Source: Ochromonas danica
Taxonomy: Eukaryota > Sar > Chrysophyceae > Chromulinales > Chromulinaceae
Length of the DNA stretch: 27,879 bases
Direction of reading: 5' to 3'
Assembly: GCA_015146655.1 (NCBI GenBank)
Contig: VKHL01000243.1
Location: 1 to 27,879, forward strand
The notes below the pieces were generated by a model. The model ran no database searches. It was given only the letters and a program-made list of their open reading frames with translations, and had not been told where the DNA came from. The translations under genes and the position numbers were made by a program. Shown one piece after another: positions 3,377-22,423 of the stretch (positions are counted from its first letter, which is position 1; each line of letters begins with the position of its first letter).

Positions 3377-6300
3377 TTAGCTGTGCTGACTAGAGCGACT
3401 CCTCCTCCTACTACTACTGCTGCCACTACTACCACCAGTCTGACTGACACTATGACTTCCACTAACGCTGCTGCGGTAGCTCTCTAGAGAGTGTGAGTAG
3501 TGGCTAGCTGACTCTTCCTCCTCCTCCTCCTCCTCATCGCTATCAAGGAGGTGGGAGGAGGAGGAGGTGGAGGAGGAGGAGGAGGAGGGAGGGTAGTCCT
3601 TCTCTTCTTTTACCCACCTACTGCTGCTATTACTAGTGTAACTAGTGTGGCTAGCACTGCTGTAGCTGTGGTCATCATAATCCAAATAGCTGCTAGCCAG
3701 AGACTGCTCCTCCTCCTCCTCCTGCTGCTCATCTCTCTGGGTAGCAGAGGATCTGCGAAGATGATCTCTTCTTCCACGCTGGGAGTAGAAGGAAGACAAA
3801 CTACCCTCACTACCCTCCTCCTCCTGCCCCCAGTCATCATCATACCCCTCCTCCTCCTCCTCCTCCTCCTGCTTCTTCTTCTTGTGGTAGTCTCTGTCTC
3901 TTCTACCGCTGTAGATGCCCGAGTCTTCTGAGCGAGCGCGTCTCAAAGTGCGCACTGCCGAGTAGATGGTAGACAGTGTGCGCTGTGTGGCCAGAGTGCT
4001 ACCATCCTCCTCCTCCTCCTCCTCCTCCTCTTCATCCAGGCCTTCGCTATCCTGCGGGTAGGGTAGGAGGAGGAGGTGGTCGATGGGCGGGATAGTGGAG
4101 GAACGAGTGGTAGCTGTGCTCTGTGTGTAGTCTTCACTGTGGTAGGTGGAGGAGGAGGAGTAGGTGCGGGCAGAGGAAGGCTGACTACCTTCCCCAGCAC
4201 TACCTAGACTAGCACTACTGCTACCGGGCACCTCTTTGTAGCCTCTACTTCGTAATAAGGCAGTGGCAGCAGAGCCCTGCAGAATGGCACTACCCTCCTC
4301 CTCCTCCTCCTCCTTCTCCTGCTGCTTAGTGAGTGATGAGGTAGCCTCTGCAGCGGGTTGCTTTTCTTCTTCTTCTCGCTTCGAATCCTCTTTGACAACA
4401 GAGATAGCAGAGTGACTGCTAGCAACCTCCTCCTCCTCCTCCTCCTCCAGCATATCCTCCTCCTCCTCCTCCTCCTCTATGTCTAGACTGAGGCTAGTAG
4501 CTGTTGTTGTGGTAGTAGTGCTACTAGCACTGTCCATGAAGAATACATCAGACAGAGATACCTCATCCTCCATAGTACTACCCTCCTCCTCCTCCATCTG
4601 CTCCTCCTCCTCCTCCTCCTCCATCTGCTCTTGTTCATCTACCACAAGCGAAGACTTCTTGCTTCTCTGTCTAGCAGACCACGACCTCAACGCCTTCTCT
4701 CTCATCTGCACGTCATCAAATCGCTTCAATTGCGATTGTAATCGTCTTCTCTCATTGCGAGCTAGTCGCTGTCGATCTCGTCGTTGTTGCTGTTCGATCT
4801 TCTCGATCTTCTTCTCATTCAGATCGACGGTTGACTTGTAATGGGTAGCTAACGACTGATAAGTGCGTATCTCTTCAAGTTGTTGTAGGCGGTAGTGATC
4901 AGTTAGTAATGCTAATAATGCGATTTGTAAAGAATCGTTCGATAAGTCATGAGGAATACGATCTACCCCTTGATACACTGGCAACAGTGAGGAGGAGGAG
5001 GAGGAGGAGGGGATGGTATAGGAGGTGTTATTCTGTGTAAACCACTGCACCAAGTGAGCTAGATGTGCGGGACTGCTATGATAGTTGTTGTTGTAGTAAT
5101 GCGGTAGATAGACCAAGACGTAGGCCTGACCTCGTCGATCCAATTGGAACTCTTCCAGTCGATCTCGTCCTCGATTGTCTGCGATGTAGCCATCATCTTC
5201 GATTGTTAAGTCAGGATGTAATTCAAACAATCCTTTACTTGTTGGTAATACTATCAGACCTCCTCCACCACCTCCTCCTCCTCCTCCACCTAGTTTAGAT
5301 GTTGATCGTAGGCGATGGTAGAGGTTAAACACAGTCTCTCTTCGACTAACGACTAGCTTCTTGATATACCCCACTGGCATCACTTTGATGTAGACTACCA
5401 TGTAGCTCTCCACTGAGTTACGATAGGCTCGAATAGCTTTCAAAGTAGTGAGAACGGTGTGACAAGTAGGTCGATGCGGACTACCACTACCACCACCTCC
5501 TCCTCCTCCTGCTACCTCTCCCTCTACCTCAGTAGTGTTGGTGGACACTGAGGCAGTGGTAGTGGTAGCAGTCGAAGAGTCATCATCCTTATCAAGCAGA
5601 GGAGAGGTAGTAGTGTGTTGCTGCTTCTTTCTGACGTGGTAGATCTTGGCCTGCTTGTCTTTCTCTTTCTCTACCTCTTCATCGTAGGCGAACTCTCCGG
5701 GCATGTAGCTCATACCATTGTCATGCTTAGGTAGCATGTAGCACCTGGGACAACCTGGTAGTCCTATACTACAAACTAGACATCTACCACGACTTGCAGC
5801 GGAAGGATCCCATTTGAAAGGATTGACTTTCCTTGCTACCCCTCCTCCTCCTCCTCCTTTGCGTCGACCACTACCTTGTTGTTGTTGTAAGATATGAGCA
5901 TTGACCATAGTCTTCTTAAATAGACTGTAATTAGTAAAGATGGGATGTATAAATCGACTCTCATCTTCAATGTTACCTCGAAAACGGACTTTGAATCCAA
6001 AGAAAGCTGGATGGACTACCATTTGTCGATCATATTCCTCTGCTACCTCACGGTATTTCTGTCGTACGATACCAAAGCCAATAGGTGTAATAGGGAAGTT
6101 AAACCAATGTTGTGCACGATGAATGATGGAGGAGGAGGAGGAGGTGGTGGTGGAGGAGGAGGAGGGTGATGGACTACTACTGCTACCACCTCCTCCTCCT
6201 CCTTCCCAATACGATGCTGGCTTACGAGAGATATGATAGACATTGACCGACAAGTCAATGTCAACTGTAAGGATAGCTCCTGTTCCACCTCCTCCGTACT

Positions 6301-9300
6301 CCTGTGCTACCTCAAACCCAACGAACACATTGCGTTGACTCTGCATTACCTCTTCTTTACAATGGCCTGCTACGATATCTTCATATGCTAGACAAGCCTT
6401 CGCAACAATCAATTGACCTCCTGTATTGGCATCGCGTACATCAAACACTAACATTTGACCAGTTCGTAACACGAAACTAGACCATTTGAAACAATCTGTT
6501 ACATTGTCATACGATAGCGTTAGATCCTCTTTACTAGGCGGTAGTGGACCATGTATGTTAATGACCTTGATAACTGGTGTTTCAGCATACCAGTTACCAT
6601 ATGGCTTACAAGCCGTTAGGAATGGTTTTAAGGGTAGCACTGTTAAGTTAAGCATGGACAAGTCAAGGCCCACGATACCCTTTATTGTGAACTTAGCTCG
6701 TAAGGGAACTTTTACCTCTTGATTGTTATTACGTAGAATAGTTTCAAATCGAAAGAGTTTCTTCTTGTTATTGTTGGTAGTTGACACTGTGTTGTCATCT
6801 CCTCCTCCTCCTCCTCCTACTCCTGTTCCTCCTCCTCCTCCTGCTAATGCTGATGATGATTGATTCATTGTCCACGAGTCCATGGTAAGGTTAGGTTGAC
6901 TACTGAGGATAACTCCCTGTCGCTTTTTAAACACTTCCCTACCACCACTACCACCACCTCCTCCTCCACCACCTCCACCACCTCCACCACCTGAGCCTCT
7001 ACCCACAGGGTGGTGGTGGAGGATGGTATCCATCATTTGACCTCCTCCTCCTCCTAGTTGACGGTTCAACACTCTTCTCATTCCTGTGGCAAGTTGTTCT
7101 TCAACAGCTTTGACAGCGAGAAGAAAGATCAACTTCTCCTTCTCCTTCTCCTTGTTACCCTTGTTGTTGATGTTGATGTTACCCTTGTCATTGATGTTGA
7201 TGTTACCCTTGTTGTTGATGTTGTTGATGTTAGTCCTCAATGACCATGTCAGAGATAGAGACATCATCTCAGTCATCATCTTGTTGTTATTAATAGCATC
7301 ACTATTGTCATTGTGATAGTCAATGTGATAGTCATTATCATAGTTGTTATTGTTGTGGTGGTGGTGGTGGTGAGGGAGGTAGTCTCCTCCAGTGCTACCA
7401 ACAGCTTCTGCCGCAACAAAGCTAGCTACCACACTATGTAACAGATGGCTAACCCAGTGAGCTGCTGTCCACAAGACTATTCGATCATAACCAGTGAAGG
7501 AGGAGGAGGAGGGGGGTTTGTATGGTATCATGTTGTCGTTCTCTTCGTTATTGAAGGAAGAGTCAAAGGTAACCTCACTGCGGGGGGTAGCACACCCCTC
7601 CTCCTCCTCCTCCTCGCCCTCTGTGATCGATGGAGGATAATCATGAGAGGACTGCGAAGCCCACGAGACTCTATGTGGGCTATTGCTATTGATATTACCT
7701 CCTCCTCCTCCTGCTCCTCCCTCGTGGCCGCTGAAGATGGTAGTTGGGTAATGATTGCTGTCTGCAAACGAAGTGACGCTGTTTTGTGTCGAATCGCCTC
7801 CTCGAGAAGTCTTAGGCCTGTCGAAGGTACTCGTGCTGTCAGCCCCAGTAGAGGTGTAGGTAGAGTAGGTAGAGTAGGTAGAGTAGGTAGCAGAGGTAGC
7901 AGAGGTGGAGTAGGTGACATTGTCATCATCATTGCCATATGTATTAGATGGATAAGAAGAAGAGAACGAAGAAGAAGAAGAAGAAGATCGAGCAGAACCC
8001 AAAGGAAATGGATCTTCTTCTTCATCGTCTCTGCTGTCGACATCAACATCATCATGTTGTAGCTGCTGTCGTTGTCGTTGTTGTTGTTGTTGTTGGAAAG
8101 ACGTCAAAGAGGCGAAGGTAGAGGAGGCAGAAGCAATTGAAGTGTTAGTTGACGAATAGTCATCAATGTTGTCTTGCAGCATCTGCTTCATCTTCATCTT
8201 CTCTCGTTTATTGTATGGCACTATCTTATACCTTTCCTTCACACCGACAGGTGACATGGAAGTTAGCACAGCAGCAGTAGCAGGAGAGCTACCTTTCTCC
8301 TCCTCCTCCGCCTCGGGGTAGTCTTCACTTTCGAACTTGGACATTAGTCGCAAGACCATCTCCATGCTACCACTACTTCCCTGGCCATTCTTCTTGGCCA
8401 ATGATCGTTTAATGATCAAGCGACCATCAACAGCTTCCATGAGAAGCAGATCGGAAATGTTGATAATCGCTTGGCCTATTAGCACTGAAGCTGAAGTGAC
8501 TGCCAGAGTGATAGAGAAGCGATTATGACAATGGATCACATAATGAATCTCCCGCCATGTAGCACTGCTTCCAGCATAGGGCAGGGATGGAGAAGAGTAC
8601 GTCTGCCCTACATAAGACAAGGTGAAACTTGGCGAGTTTTTGCCAAAGCGATGAACAGAAGGCAAATCATGAAGGTAAAGCTCTTCTACCATGAATGGAT
8701 GTCCTTCTTTCAATCTCTTGGGAATAGCAAACATGTGTCGATCAGAAGAAGAGTCAGTAACAAGTGTTTGATGACGATTCTGTTGTTGTGGACTACCTCT
8801 GACTCCTCCATCATCCCCAGCACTCTTGATCTTGTGCTTGCTGTTGTTCTTCTCAGAGGAAAGAAGCTCAAAGGCTAGGCTGAACTTCGCTATAGGAGTG
8901 ACTCCAAAGACAATATCTCCAAACAAGGTGACCATTTCAATTCCATCTCCATCTTCTTCTTCTTCCTCTCCTTGTGGCACTTGTTGATGACCAGCAACAC
9001 GATGAGTAGGAGAAGTGGTAGCCATGTTGCTGGTAGTGATGGCCGCTGCATCAAGAAATCTTGAAGCAAAGAGAGTCGCAGAGCCGATGCGATCTTGATA
9101 CTTCAACACAATCTTCCTGTTGCCATCCTGTCCAATGAAAGTCTCATCATCTTGTTCTTCTACTTCTTGTTCTTGTTCTTCCTCCTGTTCTAGACGAGGG
9201 TGAAGCTTAAACAAAGTGATCGTAAGAGACTTGGAAGGAGAATTCAATACAATACTAGGCCAATGACTGGTATTGATGACCACAGATCCAGAGACATTCC

Positions 9301-12300
9301 TAGCCAAAGGCTGGTACTCCAAATAGTCGTTAGAAGTGACAACAACAGCGATTTTGGGATAAAAGACAGAGAGGTCAGTAATAGACAGTAGATGTAATTG
9401 AATCTCTCCTTGTTGGTTATTGCTTTGGCTATCATCAGCTAGATGACGTATTGATACTGGGAGATGGAAACGATTTCTTGCCAATAGATTTGATATGCTC
9501 TGCTTTGAAGAAGTGGAAGATAGCAACAATCGACAGCGTAATCTACCCACTACTTTCCGTTGTCTGCGATGGACAAGATCACTAAAGATATCAATACAAC
9601 CATGTGCTGAACGACGTGATTGCAACAGATCCGCTGCAGTCCATGCGACTTCTCCTACGATCCCTCGACCCATTTGCCGACTTTGTAATTGAATAAACAA
9701 TTCGACATTGTGGTCGAAGATATCAAGACTGCATAGTAACATGTTCCAGAAGTATCGACTTTGTTGCTTTTCACTACATGCAAAGCTATGCTGTTGGTTT
9801 AACACATGATTCCCTCGACTTCTTACAGAGACTATTAGTCGTAAGGTATGAGTTGGTAGGGAATGAAGACTGTGTTTATCATCGTCCATTATTATCTGCA
9901 CAATAGCTATGGACATAGGTAATGTGACGAGATAAGGCAGTTTGGGGCGAAATGGATGGGGAAGTTGTTTAGGGGAAGCAGCAGGCAAGGAAGAGCCCAA
10001 CGGCAAACTACGCCGCGACTGAGAAGTTTCGTCAACAATGATGCTAGTGGAGGTATTGAAATGCCCTTGCCCATCACTTTTCAAAGAGATATCTGTCTCT
10101 TGCAGTGCTTCATCGACCACTTGCAAGGTCAACACAATCGTTCCACGCTTGTCGACATGAAGCATATCCGTGCAATAGGTTTCAATCGTTGCTTTCAATG
10201 ATACCATGTTATTGCCATCACGATTGAGCCGCAATACGTCTTGAAGTGATATTATCGAATAACCAAGTAGCTGAGCATTCGACAGCACATCAACACGCAA
10301 CGCTTTGCAACTACTGGGCACAGAGGTTGGTCCAGTTTGATCGGTCTCTAGTGCTTTAAACTTCCATTCTTGTGTCCTTGGAAATACCCACGTGGCCAAA
10401 GAGGACGGAGAGGGAAGAGTGCAGAGGTCAGACTCATTACGAAAGCCGTCGTACAAGAAAGCGACTCTGATCGAATTGGAAATACCATCCCCTTGACCCA
10501 CAACATCTCGAACAATGCATTTCACTATGAACAAACTTACTCCTTTCAGATCAGGTAGTATCTCATTCTCTTCAAAGATCGCCTCTTCATGACTGGGCGG
10601 CACTTTGGCAGGAGATGGAAAGGCACTCTTCTGATGAGAATGAAGACACGACAGAGCTACATCTCCTCGATACTCTCCTTCACTGTTAACAAACGAGTTG
10701 CATAAGTCCACGACTTCAGTCGTTGTGAAGACAAATCTCTCAATCTGCTCATAGGACATTTCACACCATCCTATTGTCTCATTGTTTGACTTGATGACCA
10801 GGCGGATATTCGCTGGCATTTGACGAGCAAATTGAAACAAATCAATCACAGGCCATTCCACCAAATCCCAAGAATATCGATCTCCTGCTTCACGTGCTAC
10901 TGTCGTACTCATTGAGAATAGTTTGTCAATAGAGACAAATACTCGAAGAGAGTTTGAAAATAGCTTGTAGACAGCGGGGATATTGCATACGGAGAGATTG
11001 AGAAGGCGAAGACTCCCCAAATACTTTGCTTCATCTTGACTGGGATCATAGACTTCTTCAAATCCAGGAAGAGAAGGAGAGAAAGGAGTGCATTTCATTA
11101 TAGGAAAGGCTTCGAATTGAATGGTTAAATAGCCCATTCTGACACAATCTTCTTCATTCCCTCTCCTGGAAGAGAGAAGAACGCCATGATATTGACTCTC
11201 CCAACGACCTTCGTCAGCCCCAGCCAGTGAATAACTTGTGCTTTGACAGGAACGACTAGTAGCAATAGCCCACTGCCAATCTTCGATATCCAGCGCTGCT
11301 TCTCCAGCACGGCAGGAGGTGATCTCAATGCTGATTGTCCATTCATCTGTGCATGCAGTCGCTGGAAGAACCAAGGAGAGGTCTTTCCATTCTATTCGGC
11401 CATTGGAAGGATTGCCCTCATTGGCTAATTGATTGACAATTGCCCCTTCGAATGAAAAGGTTAAGTCATGAGTTTTGATGACCAGCAGTGCAGTCATCAA
11501 GAAGGCGCTGTCATGCCAGTCCTTATCATTCAACAGTTCGTCCAACATGATCAAGTCATAAGCAATCGCACGCTTGATCGATAAGAAGAATGGCGTTGCC
11601 AACAGCTCCTTAGCGGGAGGAATATTTGTTAAAACCATTCCTTCCCGTCGACTTCGCGTAGCCGTCACCACATCAGGCACTTTCTCCGCGACTAAAGTCT
11701 TTCCATTCTCTTTGCTGCTAATGGGACCGAGTATTGAAGAAGAGCCATCAAGATAGGGTTGTTTCCGATAGGCCATTCTCAAGCGAACATGGCCCATCAG
11801 AGTGCGCTCGTCATAAAACACACTCTCTTGCGAGAGAATGGATCGGTCTTGGCCGTTCGAAGGCGGTGATCGAGTGAGAACTTTTCCCAAGTCATAAGTA
11901 CACGATCCTATCTCGCGGTTGTTGCTGTCGTATAAGCGCAGATGGAGGGAAGGCCAGAGAGAAGGGGCCAACGGCGAGTTGTCAGCAGTAGCAGGAAGGA
12001 TATGAGAGGATGGGAGAGGCAAAGTTATCGAGAGTGGACCACTGTGATAGCGCTGCCCTTGTTCCTCCTTCAACTGTGGGCAGTCAAATAGTTTGGATCA
12101 TTCAGTGTCAACACAGAGTCAAAGAGGTTACAAAGCTCACCTGTAACGCAGTAACGAGTCGGTCACAAACCAATTGAACGTTGACAATCCCTTCCGAAAA
12201 GAATCGTTTGGCTCTGGAAGATCCTTGCAATGCAAACACAATGTGCTCCACATCTACAACCCATTCATATGATTCCATCATACTTACTAAGGAATCAGCA

Positions 12301-15300
12301 TCACGGTTAGATCGTGTAGACTGCGAGGTCGAAGGGAGCAAAACTGATCTGCCTCTTCCTTCACTCATAATCAAGCTTCCTCCATCACTGCTACTTTCTC
12401 CATGGCCTGCAGGAAACTGTTCAACATCTGATGCATCTTCCTTGTCTTCAATCGACTGATCATAGTCTAAGGCATCCTGTGGAGAAACATACGGTTCTGA
12501 GGTATAGGATAGACGAATCATGCCACGCGAGGCAGCGGTCTTCATGGAGAAAGCTTTCAGACGAAGACTATCAACCCTATTATTGCTATTGCTCAAGCTA
12601 CTGCTTTGCATGAAAAGACCATCCGGTTGGTTGACATCATTATTCTCCGCATCCTCCAAATAGAGGAGACAGTCTAACTGACAAATGCCATATTTATCTG
12701 GTATCCTTTCAAAGAATTGTTCAGCTCGGACAAGAGCTTCCCCTATAACTATACTGTCCGATATCACCTGTAGAAAGACTGTGGAGGAAGACGAAAATAG
12801 CAGCACCTCCCACAAGAGGTTAACCCATTTACCCATTGCCCCTCCATCAGCAAGCACTGGAGTCGCGTAGTCCACAGGACCTTTCTTGGGAATCCAATAC
12901 CGTAGCTTGAGAGAAGGAGAGTTCTTTGCAAAGAGATGAACAGATGGCAAGTTCACAAATCCAATGTGATATACAACAATGAGATTTGGGTAGCATTTCT
13001 CTATCATAGGTTTCACAGAGAGTGATTGTCCGCTTGTCTTGTCTGTGGGTACTGCATTGTCAATGAAATATCGAAATTTGATCTTTCCTCCATGACTTTG
13101 ATTTGATGACTTCGTAGAGGTGAAAACAGAGTAATATTCTCTGATACCCGCACCATCAGGTCGAATGTCCAACATGCTGTCAATGGACAGACTGAGCTCA
13201 CCTAAGATTGTCTTACGAGATTGAATATAGAGATGAATTGTACTTCCCTGCTGGACAGAAAGCTTGGTATTCAACCCAAGCCATTGGCAATGTTGCCCTG
13301 CATTGTTCTGCACAGTCGTCCTAGATGAGGCGCTACCACAGACAATCGTGACAAACAAAGCATTCTTTGCCAAGAAATGTGCCTTGCGAACATCCATGAG
13401 GATAAGATCGAGGATAGTCACAGCGACAGGATAGACCGCAGTTTTCGAAGTTATCACATTCTCCTTTGATCTGGAGGAAAAAGACGGAACAAAGAAGCGA
13501 TCTCTCTCAACCTCTTGAATCAGCTCTTTATTTCTTGCCAATTGTGATGGATCTGCTAGATTGCCTCCTTCAAGTACTGGAGAAATAGAAGGACGATCAT
13601 TTGCAATCAAGCGATCGATGGTGTCCACAGCACCTTCAGATTTGATTTTCCCATAGAAAGCAATTTTCCCAACAATGGCAGTTGTTCCATAGAGATAACG
13701 ATGAATTTCTATTAACCAGCTACTATTTTTATCACTTGTTAGTCTCTTTTTCTTCATCAAAATTAACTCATCCGCACAAAGGGTCATACTAGCGAGAACT
13801 GTCTTTGACTTATTTGACTCAATTTTGCAAGTGATGAAGAATCGGTTCTTGACAGGCAGATCCCAATTCAAATCCACGAAGCTGATTTTGTTTAAACCCT
13901 CGGTATCCAAACTCCACCGATCTTTCGTGAACATTGAGGAGAAGTTCCGATAAGCACAAGAGAGGCAAAGTGTGCTCAAGGCAAGATCTGGAAGCAAGCT
14001 TTTATCCAAAGCCACCAATTCAATCTTCTCCAAGGCTAGAATAGCCGGTAATTGAATTGAATCCTCTTGCCATGAGGAGTTGATTTCTGCCGCGGGATGC
14101 AATCGATGCTCCTGGGAGATATCATGCACTGCGGACTCACATGCCAAAGAAGAGGAAGAAATTGGAAGAGAAGTTGTAGAAGCAGGAGGTTCTTTCACCA
14201 GTCTACCCATGATGACAATCTTCCCAATCGCTTCCTCTCGCGGTTGAGTCAGATCGTGCCCTTTCTCTTCAATATCTCCATAGATCTGCAAGGTCATCTG
14301 GGAGGTATGAATAGCTTCCATAGCCTCGACACCCGTGAAGACATATCTTCCAAACAGATTCTGTGTTTTGGGTTGTCCACGATAAAGATTGAAAATCAAA
14401 TTACTCTCTGGACCTGGAACAGAGACTTGCCAATCTAATTCTCTCCAACACACTTCCGTCCCAGACATTTTCTCATAGACGTTAGAACGACCACTGCCAG
14501 TAGAGGTAGCAGCGCTTTGTGCAGTATTCCATGATTTACTGCCCAGGTCAAGCTCGATGTGGACATACTCTTTGAAAAGAAAGCCATGGGGAACAACTGA
14601 CTCCCATAAATCCAAGAGTTCCACCTTCTCAAATTGTATCACAAAAGGAAAGATGATTCCAGTAGTCTGTGTATAGTGCTTTGGTAGATTGCGGACAATG
14701 GACTTCAGTTGTCGCTGGTCTCTTTCCTTTAGTTCGCAAAGTTGTACAAACCAGTCCCATTCCTCACCTTTCTCCACCAATACCTTCGCTGTGAGCCTGC
14801 CAAAACCTTTATCATTACCTGGCCTATGCAGATCTGCGATAAGTTGGAGGGTATAGTCTGCTTCTGTTGGCATGGAAAGGATATGTTCGCCTGTAAAAGA
14901 TACGCTGCCGACCAAAGTGGAGGATGGAGAAGTGAATGGTAGCAAATTCTCACGATAGAAAGACACGTCAAAATTAACGGATTCGTCTTTGTACAAACGG
15001 AAGACCCAGTTCAGTTCCGCCCATTCACATCGCTTTCCTGCAACAACGACAATATCATCAACAATTAGTAACAGAGCAGGTTCACAATTAACAGACATCA
15101 TTCTCATCCAGTCAATTGATATGTATTAGTCATACCTGCTAAGGAGTAGATCTCAGTAACAAACTTGCCTTCACCACATTGCATGGATACAAAAGGTGAA
15201 GGATATTGTAAATGAATACCAGCACGAAGATCTTCAAGTCGAATCGATTGAATGGTCAATCGCGCTAGAACACTTTGGCCTTTGGGTTTGTTGAGAGCAT

Positions 15301-17473
15301 TCACTTCCATATCCAGAAAAGACACTCTCTTTCTTCCACCGTCATTGATATGAGCATAACTTATCTTTTTTCGATTCATATCATGGGTTGGTTGTTTTCT
15401 ACCATGACGCAAAGGAGGGATGTCTTCTGGTGGGATTATATGATAACGTTTAGTAATTCCCTTTTCTGCACGATATTGCACACCAACGCTTCGGTCTGAT
15501 TTCAACAATCTTGCTAAAGATAAGGCAACATACGAGTGTCTGCTGGACTGGCGAATATAGTCAGCAGTGAAGAAAGCTGGATGCAGTACGCTGGAGTTGA
15601 AAAGCTCCTCTTGACTACGACCAGAATGGTCCTCTTTCAAACAGTAGTAATTCATCATAGCAGGGTGAACTTTACTAGCAGGTAGAACTTGTACATCCAC
15701 AACATTGTTGGATGGTGACAATCGATCATCCAGAACACCTTGAGAGACTGTGACGGCAGGACATGGAAGGATCTCTTGGAAACAATGCGACAAAGCAGTC
15801 AGTCTCTCCAACGGTGACACTCCAGGAGAGGATTTCTTCAATTGTGCAAAAGTGGACAGTACATGCTTCTTGATGCGATATTGCAGCTCCATTAACTCTG
15901 TACGATTGTAGACAACATTCGATGAAGATGCGGCTGCTGAGCGAGAGACAGTTTTGTGCTTTGGTATTCCGTGCTTCTTCATCTCAGCTATTCTCTTCAA
16001 CTTCTTGTTACGGCGCACAATCATTGCCGTTGGTGAAGGCACTGGTGATGTGGGGGCAGACACAGAAACAGTATTAGGAGGAGGCGCGGTATCCACCGCA
16101 ATCATGTTGTCTGTTGTTGATTGGACATTATCAATCGGTACATCTGCCGCATTCTCATCCTCGTGAAGAGCAACCTCTTCGACATAATCAGCAGACGAAG
16201 AAGAGGGCACAACAGCCGGTGAGGGGACATCCGAAGGAACCTCAGAAGGAGCCTCAGGAACAACGACAGGAGGAGGCAGCGGCTGCGATTGAATAGTACG
16301 ATGATGATACTTCCTTCGACGAATACCATAATGATCAACATAAGAATCTTCAAAATACCTTTTCTTCTGATCTGCAACTAAGTCATGATTCTTGATTTTG
16401 AGATATTTCCTTCTCTCTGCTTTCAATTTTCGTTCATGTTGTTGCCGCAAGACAAACTTTTCTCTTTCCACGTCACGGAATCGATGTTTGGCATACTTTC
16501 TCAATCTCTCAATACTCTCTTCACTGTCTAGATAGCGGATATAGAAATCTCTAAACTCTTCAAATTCAAACTCTCCCGATCCATCTCGATCATATTGTGC
16601 AAACAATTCTGCCATCAAGACTTCCATCTGACCTTGTGTGATGCCCAGGTTCAGATTCATCAACATTGGTTGTCCCACATGAACATGTTGATAGGTGGTG
16701 TCTTCCGCTGAGAAGCCAAAGGAATAGCGACAGCTTCGCCGACAATTGGGTCCAGTGGAGAAGAGCAATCGGAAAGTCAAAGTCTCTGACCGAAAAGTGA
16801 TCTGTCTGCGATGGATATTGAACTCTACTTTGATTTCATTTAGCAAAGGATTAACTTGTCGAAACGCCTCATGGATTTTGCCCGTAAAGATCTCTGGACT
16901 GTAAACTGCTCCAGTAGGCAAAGTGATGGAATAGACGTCATCATCTACCTCGATATCCAACGCACAGCAGAACTTGTTAATAATCAGTATAGGCTCATCA
17001 AAGGAGAGGGTTAATGCATCATCATTGATTCGCAAGAGCTCTTCATAAAGGAAGGTGAGAGACTTCTTATTATGTGGTTTGATCAACTTTTCATTGATAG
17101 CATGTAAACGCATACGTTCTATGAGGAATGGCACAGCAGATGCAGCAGATCGTTCCTCTATAGTCACAATGACAACACAATTCTCTTCATCCAAGCCAAA
17201 GACCAAGCCAGTGTCAGGGTGGTCGAAGTCGGCGGAGACGAAGCGAATCACTTCTCCCATGAGCACACGGTTGAGTTCGCGGAGAGAGACTGTTCCACCA
17301 CCATCTACATCCATCATGGAGAAGAGCTTGTAAGCTCGATAGTTCTCCTCTTGAGTATCTGTACCCCAACAACAACCACAACCACAACCACAACATCATG
17401 TCAGACTGACACAGACAGATAGACAGACACATGCGAGAGATGCTTGCTTACAGCTTATTCGATTTTCAGCCAT
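3377..17473 (-). CDS. Giant EF-hand and multi-C2-like protein, about 4,612 aa
   Basis: Four exons: 17473-17452, 17358-15136, 15037-12141 and 12073-3377 (TAA 3377-3379). Introns are 93, 98 and 67 nt in phases 1, 1 and 0; all join in frame, giving about 4,612 residues. The 22-nt first exon encodes MAENRIS and completes the first EF-hand helix. EF-hand loops: DVDGGGTVSLRE (24-35) and DRDGSGEFEFEE (264-275). Then come a basic coiled coil (about 290-335) and a Pro/Ala/Ser linker. From about 690 to 2,950 I count some twelve C2-like beta repeats; two share LPSVHxFxKNSPS (about 1,447 and 2,857). Further on are low-complexity Ser/Gly/His/Asn tracts, another C2-like unit, a CX2CX6CX2C knuckle (about 3,819), a possible ubiquitin-like fold (3,930-4,030), a basic coiled coil (4,115-4,190) and an acidic/Ser tail ending in Arg-Ser. 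Calcium-regulated membrane or centriole/cilium scaffolding (compare ferlins, C2CD3) is a guess. Most C2-like units seem to lack the full set of calcium-binding Asp residues. Confidence 0.8.
7155..7226 (-). repeat. 24-bp coding minisatellite, three units
   Basis: Three adjacent 24-bp units begin with TTACCC at 7155, 7179 and 7203. On the sense strand they encode an Asn/Ile-rich octapeptide repeat around KGNINI. Length is a multiple of three, so the frame of the giant gene is kept. Confidence 0.85.
7859..7912 (-). repeat. 9-bp coding repeat, Thr-Tyr-Ser units
   Basis: Six 9-bp units: GGTAGAGTA at 7859, 7868 and 7877, GGTAGCAGA at 7886 and 7895, and GGTGGAGTA at 7904. They encode Thr-Tyr-Ser and Thr-Ser-Ala type tripeptides in the giant protein. 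Confidence 0.85.
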
Positions 17474-19539: not shown

Positions 19540-19734
19540 TTTGGATAGTTAGGCTAGTTTCTCTCTACGATGAGATGCGATAAGACAACAAAAGAAGAAG
19601 CACGCAGCTGTGCTGCCAGAGAGAAGAGGGCGGCCAGGGAAGTTAAAGCCTGATCTAGACAAGTTAACCCTCCAGATCTGCAGAATCTGGATCTGGGTTG
19701 AGAGGGTGAAGGGATTGATTGGATCGTGTTTTGC
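19540..19734. promoter_or_regulatory. Divergent promoter, NDUFS4 and PPR-TrmB
   Basis: This 195-bp gap lies between two start codons on opposite strands. It contains a short hyphenated palindrome, CCAGAT...ATCTGG, at about 19671-19689. No CCCACGCAA copy was found here. The functional assignment rests on position alone. Confidence 0.4.
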
Positions 19735-22423
19735 ATGGTTGAGAAGAAAAGAAGCATGGAACGCAGTGAAATTGTGACAACCAATCAAAAGATTGCTTTA
19801 CATGCCAAACGAAAGGAGCTTTCTTCAGCGCTAGAGTTATTTAATTCTCTCTATAGTCAGAATGCAGCTAATAGTCATACCTACGCCTCAATGATCAACG
19901 CGGCAGTGCAATGTGGTGATCTCCAGCTAGCTGAAGAAATTGTCCAGAAAATGATCCAATCGGGAAGGAAGTTACATCGTGAGGTTATTCTGTGTACTAC
20001 TCTGATGAAAGGCTATTGCAATAATGGTCAACTGGGTCAAGCCATGCAATTGTTCAAAGAGATGTTGGAACGCAATGCGAAAGACAATCAACCCAATATC
20101 CGCACTGTCAACACTTTATTACGTGGGTGTGTTCAAATGGGAGCAGTACGTGAAGCTGAAGAGATCTTCACCATCTTACTCAAGGATCTCAAGCTTTCCC
20201 CCGATGTCTCCGCCTGGGAATACCTCCTCATCCTGCAGTGCCAGAATCTCGACCTGGACAAGATCCTCCCCGCGATAGGCCGCATTAAAGATGATGCTAG
20301 TATGAAAACTGGGCTTCTCCGCATTCACCTATGCCTCACTCGATGCTGTGCTATTCTGGGCGAGAGCAAGTCTGCACGACGATTTCTCTCCACCACACAA
20401 CAACTCCTTTCCCAATCCAATTCTGAAGATGAGCAGAATCATGGGGGTAGTGGAGGGAATGATGTGGTTGAGATGGCAGAGATCCTTGAGCAGCTTCAAG
20501 GCAAGCAGTCGCAGCAAGGAGAGGAACAGAAAGTTATTCGCAATGCGCAAAAGACAATCACGGGGGGTAAGAGAGCATGGAACTCTCTGCATCAACAAAG
20601 CACAGAGTCAGTTGACGAAGCTAGAAATCAGTCTCTTGCACTCTATAGGGACCATATTAACCAAGAGGCTAGATCAGACTTAGCATTGGTAGAAGCATTC
20701 CTGCAAGGCCACCCTCAACACTGTGGATTCCAAGCTTTCCAATCTCTCTGTCGCTATCTTCGACGATTAATCTCCTTACCAAGCTCCTTCCCAATCAAGG
20801 AGAAAGGAGAAGAAGATGAAGGCGTTGGTAAAAAGTTATGGAAAGCACTTTTGGAGCGGTTTGGTTTGCAAGTGTTTGTGAAGCGATTGACTCGAAAGAC
20901 GATTCCACAGCTGCTTGATGAGTTGGATCAGGCTACACGCAAAGCACAAAAGGAAGGAAAAGCCAGTGTCGATCCTAATAGTGTTGATTTACAGGTTGGA
21001 CAAGAGCTCTCACTTCTTCAATCACGATTAGACAATTATTTCCAACCCAATGGCCAGTTCTCCTTTGATGTGATCTTTGATGTTGATAAGAATGATCCGA
21101 AGAAGACCCATAGACCCTTGAAAATGGAGATTTGCTCTGGAGCAGGTGAATGGGCTTCAATTCAAGCGAAAAGCGATGAAGGTAGATCTGATTGGATGAC
21201 TTTAGAAGTGCGGCAAGATCGCGTCTACCACACGTTTGCTCGTATGATGATGCAAGATATCCAAAACTTGGCTGTGCTTGGTGGAGATGCGATGAAACTC
21301 TTGCCTCAGCATTTCCCTGACGATGCCTTGGAATACATTTTCGTGAATTATCCCGAGCCACCTCAACAGCGTGCTGGTGATGATCATTCTGAAGCACGTC
21401 ATCTGCTAACAACACCATTCTTTGAGGAGGTCTATCGCATATTGAAGACTGGTGGACGATTAGTGATCTTGACAGACAATCTCTGGTATGGCAAGTTAGT
21501 CACTCGTATCCTCAGCGAACAAGAAGGAGTCACTTGGAAGTCAGTCACTCAACGCGTCTCAACAGTCAAAGGACAAGGCAAGAAGAAGTACTTTGGAGAA
21601 GAGGAGAAGGAGGAAGGGACTTCTCCAGAAGAGCAACCAGCAGAAGTGGTGGTGGTTGAAGAGAGTGGTGTTACCTCACAATGGAAGAGTATCCTCACAA
21701 TGGGCAGCGTTGTTCTCTACGAAGGTGAACCTGGCCCTCAGGCGGGTCATCTCACTTCTGCTTCTTCATACTTTGACCGGTGAGATTTGGTCATATTTTT
21801 GTTCACGTAGATTGCTCATCTTTGTTTTTGCTTTTGCTTTGAATAGTTTGTGGCAGAGAAGTTCCCAACAAGAGCGATACTTTATTGCACTGGAAAAGGT
21901 GCAAGCAAATACTGCAAAGGGTTCTTCTAAAGAAAGAAAAGGCAAAACGGAGACACAAGGAGGAGCCTCTTTGAAGCCTCAAGCTGTGTTACCCACACAC
22001 GAAACTGCGTCTAAAAAGAAGGCCACAACTGCTTCCAAGCCTGAGACTTCTGCCCAATCTGCAACTGTAGGGGAGGAGAAGAAGAAGAGCAAGAAGGTGG
22101 CTGTTGCTGCGGTCAAGCCACAGGTTGACACAGCCGAGAAGTCTGCGTCTAACAACCTCCCCTCAACAGTCTCCAAGGTTCGTCAAGTCGCTAGGAGACG
22201 GCAAATTAGTAATGATGACAGTGACGATGATGATGACGTTGATAGCGGCAGTCTAGCAGAGAAGGCTATTGCCAAGTTACTTGCGGTTGGCAATGATGAC
22301 GAAGAAGAAGATTTGAGGCAATCATTTGAGACAAATAAGCGCAGAAAGAGGTCTTCATCAGGAGAGGACGACCGCATTATGCTCAAGAAGAAGCGTGTTC
22401 CTTTGAGAAAGTCTTCTCATTAG
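19735..22423 (+). CDS. PPR repeats fused to TrmB-type tRNA m7G methyltransferase
   Basis: Two exons, 19735-21779 and 21847-22423, with a 67-nt phase-2 intron; 873 residues. I chose the ATG at 19735 because the frame extends only three codons further, to a GTG. Residues about 45-170 hold three to four pentatricopeptide repeats (for example SHTYASMINAAVQCGDLQLA and NIRTVNTLLRGCVQMGAVRE). From about 460 comes a TrmB fold: MEICSGAGEW is SAM motif I, VNYPEPPQQ (about 537) replaces the usual NFPDPWPKKRH motif, LTDNLWYG (about 579) matches the family's TDN motif, and SYFDR/LWQRSSQQERYF across the intron is the conserved C-terminal signature. TrmB methylates guanine 46 of tRNA. PPR tracts bind RNA, so the fusion may choose its substrate. 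The C-terminal tail carries acidic runs and KRRKR, which looks nuclear or nucleolar; no organelle leader is evident. PPR-methyltransferase fusions have been reported in algae and other protists (recalled, not checked). Confidence 0.88.

Follow-up and report, generated by a model that had tools for sequence, protein, structure and literature searches.

A predicted giant EF-hand protein of Ochromonas danica with an array of probably calcium-independent C2 domains

Structure of the giant gene

The window analysed here, a 27,879-nucleotide stretch of Ochromonas danica DNA, is contig C243 of a 31.19-Mb genome in 337 contigs, and it carries on its minus strand, from 17473 to 3377, a predicted giant gene that places two EF-hands ahead of an array of C2 domains. 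In a scripted translation, splicing of four exons gave a single frame of 4612 residues with no internal stops. The three introns, of 93, 98 and 67 nt, are all GT-AG, and since the lengths of introns 2 and 3 are not multiples of three, the frame survives only when both are removed. The exons, and the two introns that fall within repeats, are as follows.

17452..17473, minus strand: exon 1, 22 nt, start codon and residues 1-7; placed by signals only, an ATG in the context AAGATGG and a GT donor
15136..17358, minus strand: exon 2, residues 8-748, with EF-hand 1, an insert, EF-hand 2, a linker and the front half of the first C2 repeat; EF-hands by Pfam
15135-15038, minus strand: intron 2, interrupting the C2 repeat at residues 708-824
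12141..15037, minus strand: exon 3, residues 749-1714, with the rest of the repeat begun in exon 2 and the four C2 repeats after it; by profiles
12140-12074, minus strand: intron 3, within a weak C2-like slice, residues 1670-1825
3377..12073, minus strand: exon 4, residues 1715-4612 and stop, with two clear C2 repeats and one borderline, low-complexity blocks, a Cys motif and an acidic/Ser tail

The strongest evidence joining the predicted exons 2 and 3 is the C2 repeat split by intron 2. Scored with a profile built only from repeats of a second multi-C2 locus, on contig C70, and without any sequence of the giant gene, the joined repeat reached 40.1 bits, and its halves 13.3 and 14.8 bits over profile positions 6-41 and 46-95. 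An earlier note on this DNA had proposed four exons and three introns forming one in-frame gene, which these results support, and had named separate genes at about 15.1 or 12.1 kb as the alternative; the split repeat argues against a boundary at the first position, and the case at the second, intron 3, is weaker, its domain support being the slice at residues 1670-1825. No Met occurs among the first 92 codons of exon 4, an observation that tells against a separate gene beginning there. Scored by the codon usage of seven neighbouring frames, 42 of the 44 300-nt blocks also gave the frame of the giant gene as the best of six, in a test that penalises stop codons and thereby handicaps the competing frames.

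Two or three adjacent genes, with exon 4 or its C-terminal part standing apart, would be in keeping with a gene model made from sequence alone, with an intron 3 backed by splice signals and a weak repeat, and with a last third that holds low-complexity stretches and no C2 repeat found past residue 2953. Such a division has to contend with a frame that is continuous across intron 3, with one repeat type on both sides of that intron, and with an exon 4 that lacks an early Met and runs for 2898 codons without a stop, and we regard it as very unlikely. The single gene of four exons is the model used below.

The C2 array and its relatives

Eight repeats picked by eye, three from the giant protein and five from C70, seeded a profile that was then iterated and found eight C2 repeats in the giant protein, at residues 708-824, 882-1010, 1082-1179, 1288-1402, 1435-1547, 2069-2188, 2473-2553 and 2841-2953; its scores are inflated because the profile includes the repeats it scores. 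The profile of six C70 repeats only gave 63.4, 38.2, 32.6, 31.5, 20.9, 18.3, 9.4, 7.7 and -2.9 bits on the same protein, against 8.1 bits for the best of 200 block-shuffled proteins and 3.5 for the next, indicating that six repeats are clear (18.3-63.4 bits) and two borderline (9.4 and 7.7 bits). Further slices were compared with 500 shuffles each, five control slices being reached by 223 to 310 of them. Three slices are only suggestive of extra C2 domains (1670-1825, 1860-2045 and 2220-2372), and two did not rise above the shuffles (2596-2795, reached by 94 of 500, and 3490-3665, by 114). The earlier count of about twelve C2-like repeats thus held for the type of domain and came down in number, to six clear, eight likely and up to eleven. 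No C2 repeat was found beyond residue 2953 by the C70-only profile, the iterated profile or the slice tests.

14811..15259, minus strand: C2 repeat, residues 708-824; 31.5 bits with the C70-only profile; split by intron 2
14253..14639, minus strand: C2 repeat, residues 882-1010; 20.9 bits, C70-only profile
13746..14039, minus strand: borderline C2 repeat, residues 1082-1179; 7.7 bits, C70-only profile, below the best shuffle (8.1), and 59.9 bits with the iterated, self-including profile
13077..13421, minus strand: C2 repeat, residues 1288-1402; 63.4 bits; modelled, with C2 matches in Foldseek
12642..12980, minus strand: C2 repeat, residues 1435-1547; 32.6 bits, C70-only profile
11741..12275, minus strand: weak C2-like slice, residues 1670-1825, spanning intron 3; 3.8 bits, reached by 0 of 500 shuffles; HHalign 13.5%
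11081..11638, minus strand: weak C2-like slice, residues 1860-2045; 4.4 bits, 1 of 500 shuffles; HHalign 2.9%
10652..11011, minus strand: C2 repeat, residues 2069-2188; 18.3 bits, C70-only profile
10100..10558, minus strand: weak C2-like slice, residues 2220-2372; 4.9 bits, 2 of 500 shuffles; HHalign 2.3%
9521..9928, minus strand: borderline C2 repeat, residues 2430-2565 (core 2473-2553); 9.4 bits, C70-only profile (best shuffle 8.1), and 57.5 bits with the iterated, self-including profile
8357..8695, minus strand: C2 repeat, residues 2841-2953; 38.2 bits, C70-only profile
6221..6748, minus strand: candidate C2-like domain, residues 3490-3665, not supported; -1.0 bits, no Pfam match

The assignment of these repeats to the C2 superfamily (PF00168) came from both profile and fold. 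A 12-row alignment (A1) was made of seven repeats of the giant protein, the eighth (2430) being left out, and of five C70 repeats, the sixth (905) being left out; identity to its first row is 13-24%, and there are near-invariant Gly and Trp positions. Run against PDB sequences, the A1 profile gave four matches at an expectation value (E) up to 10: two C2 proteins, 5yq3 (plant C2 protein At3g55470, E 4.7e-6) and 9bkw (a Trichomonas C2, E 0.013), followed by two chains of other kinds, a Rex repressor (E 0.085) and an acyl-CoA hydrolase (E 0.56). A further profile link to known C2 domains runs through the repeats of a third array, on contig C140. The predicted model of residues 1283-1405 is an eight-stranded beta sandwich of C2 type, with a predicted local distance difference test score (pLDDT) of 84.1 and a predicted template modelling score (pTM) of 0.78. 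Foldseek returned 1256 PDB matches to it at E up to 10, 38 of them at E up to 0.001, and the best 50 of the 1256 were all C2 domains or C2-containing proteins (TM 0.48-0.71 by query length), a count in which PI3K gamma and cPLA2 are taken to be C2-containing. By profile and by predicted fold the central repeats are C2 domains, and the C2-type sandwich, whose absence from fold prediction would have refuted the earlier note by its own account, was found in the one repeat modelled. A FAP42_B3 match in one of the 12 repeats (E 0.013) was treated as chance.

Beyond the EF-hands, Pfam returned nothing from the three exon proteins at E up to 1, the Fer and DysF domains of ferlins included, and only DUF4407 (E 0.84) from ten protein slices at E up to 10, in line with the earlier statement that no recognised family is present. 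The tandem layout could also be that of a C2 protein that tethers membranes, of the ferlin, E-Syt or MCTP type, diverged past recognition, and dysferlin, myoferlin, otoferlin and E-Syt all had C2 domains among the best 50 of the 1256 fold matches. Ferlins carry many C2 domains per chain, with a C2A of similar fold, and a C-terminal membrane anchor, and are not known to have EF-hands. The giant protein, in contrast, has EF-hands and, by composition, ends in an acidic, Ser-rich tail. Given this and the Pfam result, we consider descent from a tethering family distinctly unlikely.

The C70 locus (L014-L015, G000:C70:8354-15220), whose several open frames we infer to be one gene, encodes the same ligand-poor C2 subclass as the giant protein and differs from it in being shorter, in its Gly/Ser/Thr-rich linkers and in having no EF-hand by eye, no Pfam scan having been run on it; a run of about 700 N starts just downstream, at about 15491. 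A whole-genome search with one C70 repeat at E up to 1 found only C70 (five places) and the giant gene (four places), and the same search with one repeat of the giant protein found itself, C70 (four places) and the C140 array once (E 0.009). A search of the genome with exon 3 gave matches at three places on C70, at one in exon 4 of the giant gene itself and at one on C9 (E 0.226). With exon 4, seven of ten rows fell on contigs other than C70 and C243, at 9.7-19 bits and mostly over low-complexity stretches.

The C140 array (L019, G000:C140:43000-52999) shares its tandem C2 organisation with the giant protein; it keeps acidic ligands and passes Pfam C2. The seed profile found it at ten places in two frames, with a best score of 29.9 bits, and in the other direction a C140-only profile gave 15.3, 13.7 and 6.2 bits on the giant protein, then -1.9 and -3.1, the best of 200 shuffles scoring 3.1. 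In the stretch examined, its first two 176-residue units are identical (176/176) and the third matches at 123 of its first 130 residues, which looks like the pattern left by recent duplication. Contig C85 carries a frame of 5749 residues (5285 in the slices examined) with Pfam C2 matches (L017/L018, G000:C85:37145-52999); the seed profile found no repeat in the C85 frame, though Pfam C2 matches it, or in the C9 frame. Peptide-seeded searches, which detect close relatives only, found no relative of exon 2 in viral and prokaryotic collections; in viral contigs they found none of exon 3 either, nor of 292 residues taken from exon 4. Beyond its own genome the giant protein therefore has no relative found within the viral and prokaryotic collections, eukaryote collections lying outside this scope.

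EF-hands, calcium ligands and the proposed role

Two stretches of the exon 2 protein matched Pfam EF-hand_1 (34.8 bits, cut-off 25.4), both are covered by calmodulin-type PDB matches (E 0.004-0.01), and both have acidic loops, so that the two EF-hands proposed from the sequence were recovered. They frame a putative domain of about 195 residues.

17276..17311, minus strand: EF-hand 1 loop, residues 24-35, DVDGGGTVSLRE; Pfam stretch, loop covered by a calmodulin match (E 0.0044)
16646..17233, minus strand: insert between the EF-hands, residues 50-245, putative domain without recognised fold
16556..16591, minus strand: EF-hand 2 loop, residues 264-275, DRDGSGEFEFEE; best Pfam EF-hand stretch

Pfam and PHROGs searches gave no match to the insert, and its predicted model, at pLDDT 35.4, was too low for use. 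A viral link of the insert, suggested by the likeness of a motif to ones in viral and protist proteins, was dropped: PHROGs gave nothing, and the sole relative in IMG/VR was a 39-residue match inside what appeared by eye to be a phage topoisomerase.

Calcium ligands in the C2 array were assessed at five columns read from a C140 repeat, in a MAFFT alignment of 21 repeats (eight from the giant protein, six from C70 and seven from C140); we take these columns, in loops 1 and 3, to be the calcium ligands of C2 domains of the PKC and synaptotagmin type. Acidic residues at the five columns numbered 0, 0, 0, 0 and 0 of 8 in the giant protein, 0, 0, 0, 0 and 3 of 6 in C70, and 6, 7, 6, 0 and 5 of 7 in C140, where the fourth column is Asn in six of the seven repeats. 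DPF or DPY was present in all seven C140 repeats and in none of the eight or six others, and NSP in none of the C140 repeats, two of eight in the giant protein and three of six in C70; His occupies the first loop-1 column in four of eight and four of six, respectively. Loop 3 measures 15, 10, 8, 6, 6, 6, 9 and 6 residues in the giant protein, 6-8 in C70 and 10-11 in C140, and is thus shorter in six of the eight repeats than in the calcium-type C140 array. The repeats of the giant protein, which Pfam C2 misses, therefore depart from classical C2 domains in lacking the acidic ligands of loops 1 and 3 and, in most cases, in the length of loop 3. This suggests that the array is probably calcium-independent and that calcium sensing, if any, falls to the EF-hands. 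The calcium responsiveness put forward in the earlier note accordingly finds a candidate seat in the EF-hands and no support in the C2 array.

A decaying gene that lost its calcium sites under relaxed selection might be expected to look similar in some respects, having low identity between repeats and low-complexity stretches. This is hardly credible for a frame of 4612 stop-free codons with codon use like that of its neighbours, and the C70 repeats share both the ligand-poor loops and the frequent His in loop 1.

The reading we prefer, held at about even confidence, is that one gene encodes a giant calcium-tuned scaffold in which an EF-hand head precedes a calcium-free C2 rod. The two EF-hands framing the insert would act as a calcium sensor; the C2 array would form a rod whose sandwiches bind proteins or lipids independently of calcium and hold partners in order; and the C-terminal third would be largely flexible and would carry sites for docking or phosphorylation. 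By altering binding at the front end, calcium would tune the position of the rod at a membrane or at a structure built on microtubules, for instance the basal body. A membrane or basal-body location is a guess; the IFT46 (two matches, in neighbouring pieces) and B9-type proteins (four matches) encoded in the genome make a basal-body role possible, and nothing ties the giant gene to that role.

Several points weigh against the scaffold. All of its evidence is sequence and predicted structure. The C70 repeats had been chosen by eye for their resemblance to those of the giant protein before the profile was built. None of the exon proteins and none of the 12 A1 rows reached the Pfam C2 cut-off, and C243 was not among the 47 genome matches. 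The model of residues 1283-1405, the only repeat modelled, was made from a slim, six-row alignment, and of its five versions three scored pLDDT 83.5-84.1 and two 57 and 55. Pairing of the EF-hands across the insert could not be recovered from the low-scoring insert model. In the ligand count a gap was scored as non-acidic, and Asp or Glu adjoins a column in some repeats of the giant protein; single columns may also be misplaced, because there was one alignment only and A1 identity is 13-24%.

Known C2 proteins offer parallels for a rod of this kind. According to PMC8239364, C2 domains that target membranes independently of calcium exist, and the three C2 domains of CEP120 are of the calcium-independent kind and may bind microtubules; its passages on C2CD3 describe an N-terminal C2 together with five classical ones and name no EF-hands. 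In human cells the C2 protein SAS-1 binds microtubules and stabilises them (PMC4238951). The giant protein resembles C2CD3 and CEP120 in having several C2 domains, and CEP120 in having calcium-independent ones. By analogy, SAS-1 and CEP120 are parallels to the giant protein and do not imply family membership.

It may instead be a diverged basal-body protein of the C2CD3, RPGRIP1 or CC2D2A type. Calcium-independent C2 domains occur in such proteins (PMC8239364, as above), IFT46 and B9-type genes are present, and the C2A domain of Cep120 ranked 41 among the best 50 of the 1256 fold matches. Pfam scans, however, gave neither the C2CD3 N-terminal family (C2_C2CD3_N), absent from the hits of the exon proteins and not found genome-wide in a search without a positive control, nor any other ciliary C2 family, and the best solved profile matches are the plant and Trichomonas C2 proteins. 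We judge this origin unlikely.

More ambitiously, flagellated algae could have a new family of giant scaffolds gated by calcium, with this protein as its founder: an EF-hand pair split by a novel domain would control a rod of a distinct, calcium-free C2 subclass (often with His in loop 1, often with a short loop 3), which would act as an organiser of basal bodies or membrane contacts, with the C70 gene as partner or paralogue; this we put forward as doubtful. Among titles and abstract openings, a literature search found no description of an architecture of EF-hands with calcium-less C2 domains. The order of domains and the ligand-poor C2 subclass look new within the collections searched, eukaryote proteomes being outside them, and the kinds of domain are known. 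To call the locus the best candidate for an undescribed system was too strong, because proteins with C2 domains in tandem are already known and the genome has other multi-C2 loci (C70 and C140).

If the calcium-tuned scaffold is correct, the C2 domains would have handed calcium control over to an EF-hand head set apart from them, and two large loci of one alga would share calcium-less C2 domains of a subclass that Pfam misses. Algal cell biology would gain a specific candidate for a large scaffold tuned by calcium, along with a reason to search such genomes more widely for C2 domains.

C-terminal part and genome setting

The features of the C-terminal part were assigned mostly by composition or pattern.

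6746..8338, minus strand: low-complexity region, residues 2960-3490; Ser/Asn/Gly-rich runs, by composition, with tandem repeats at the DNA level
5741..5782, minus strand: putative Cys motif, CxxC-x6-CxxC, residues 3812-3825; sequence pattern, single occurrence
5111..5404, minus strand: proposed ubiquitin-like region, residues about 3938-4035; not supported, no Pfam match
3380..4633, minus strand: acidic and Ser-rich tail, residues 4195-4612; by composition

The low-complexity block, the acidic/Ser tail and, as a sequence pattern, the Cys knuckle are as the earlier note had described them, and the possible ubiquitin-like fold is not. With its poly-Gly run included, that slice matched ubiquitin entries (E 0.11 and 0.39) and a ubiquitin fusion (E 2.2) among 53 mostly unrelated chains; without the run there was no ubiquitin match at E up to 10 and none in Pfam, in sequence searches that diverged folds can escape. 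A genome match touching this region (L025) was set aside, being aligned over 10 residues only. The pentapeptide HPAFF occurs twice in the giant protein, at residues 600 and 3735 (15569-15583 and 5999-6013, minus strand), and is perhaps a repeated short domain, or chance.

Among the genes next to the giant one are those for a CCB2/CCB4-type protein and an FKBP. At 19702-21783 on the plus strand of the window, one frame joins PPR and a TrmB-type Methyltransf_4 domain (Pfam), a fusion of which we know no other example. Genome-wide, the chlorophyll a/b-binding family gave 47 matches, some of them pieces of one gene, and from the light-harvesting, IFT46 and B9 matches the host is probably a photosynthetic, flagellated alga, perhaps a stramenopile. 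One light-harvesting protein of the genome matched the LHCI chains of 9vfj best, followed by XLH, VCPI and fucoxanthin proteins. Four light-harvesting matches of equal score lie at G000:C224:8673-16382 with a spacing of exactly 2407 bases, which reflects either a young tandem array or an effect of assembly.

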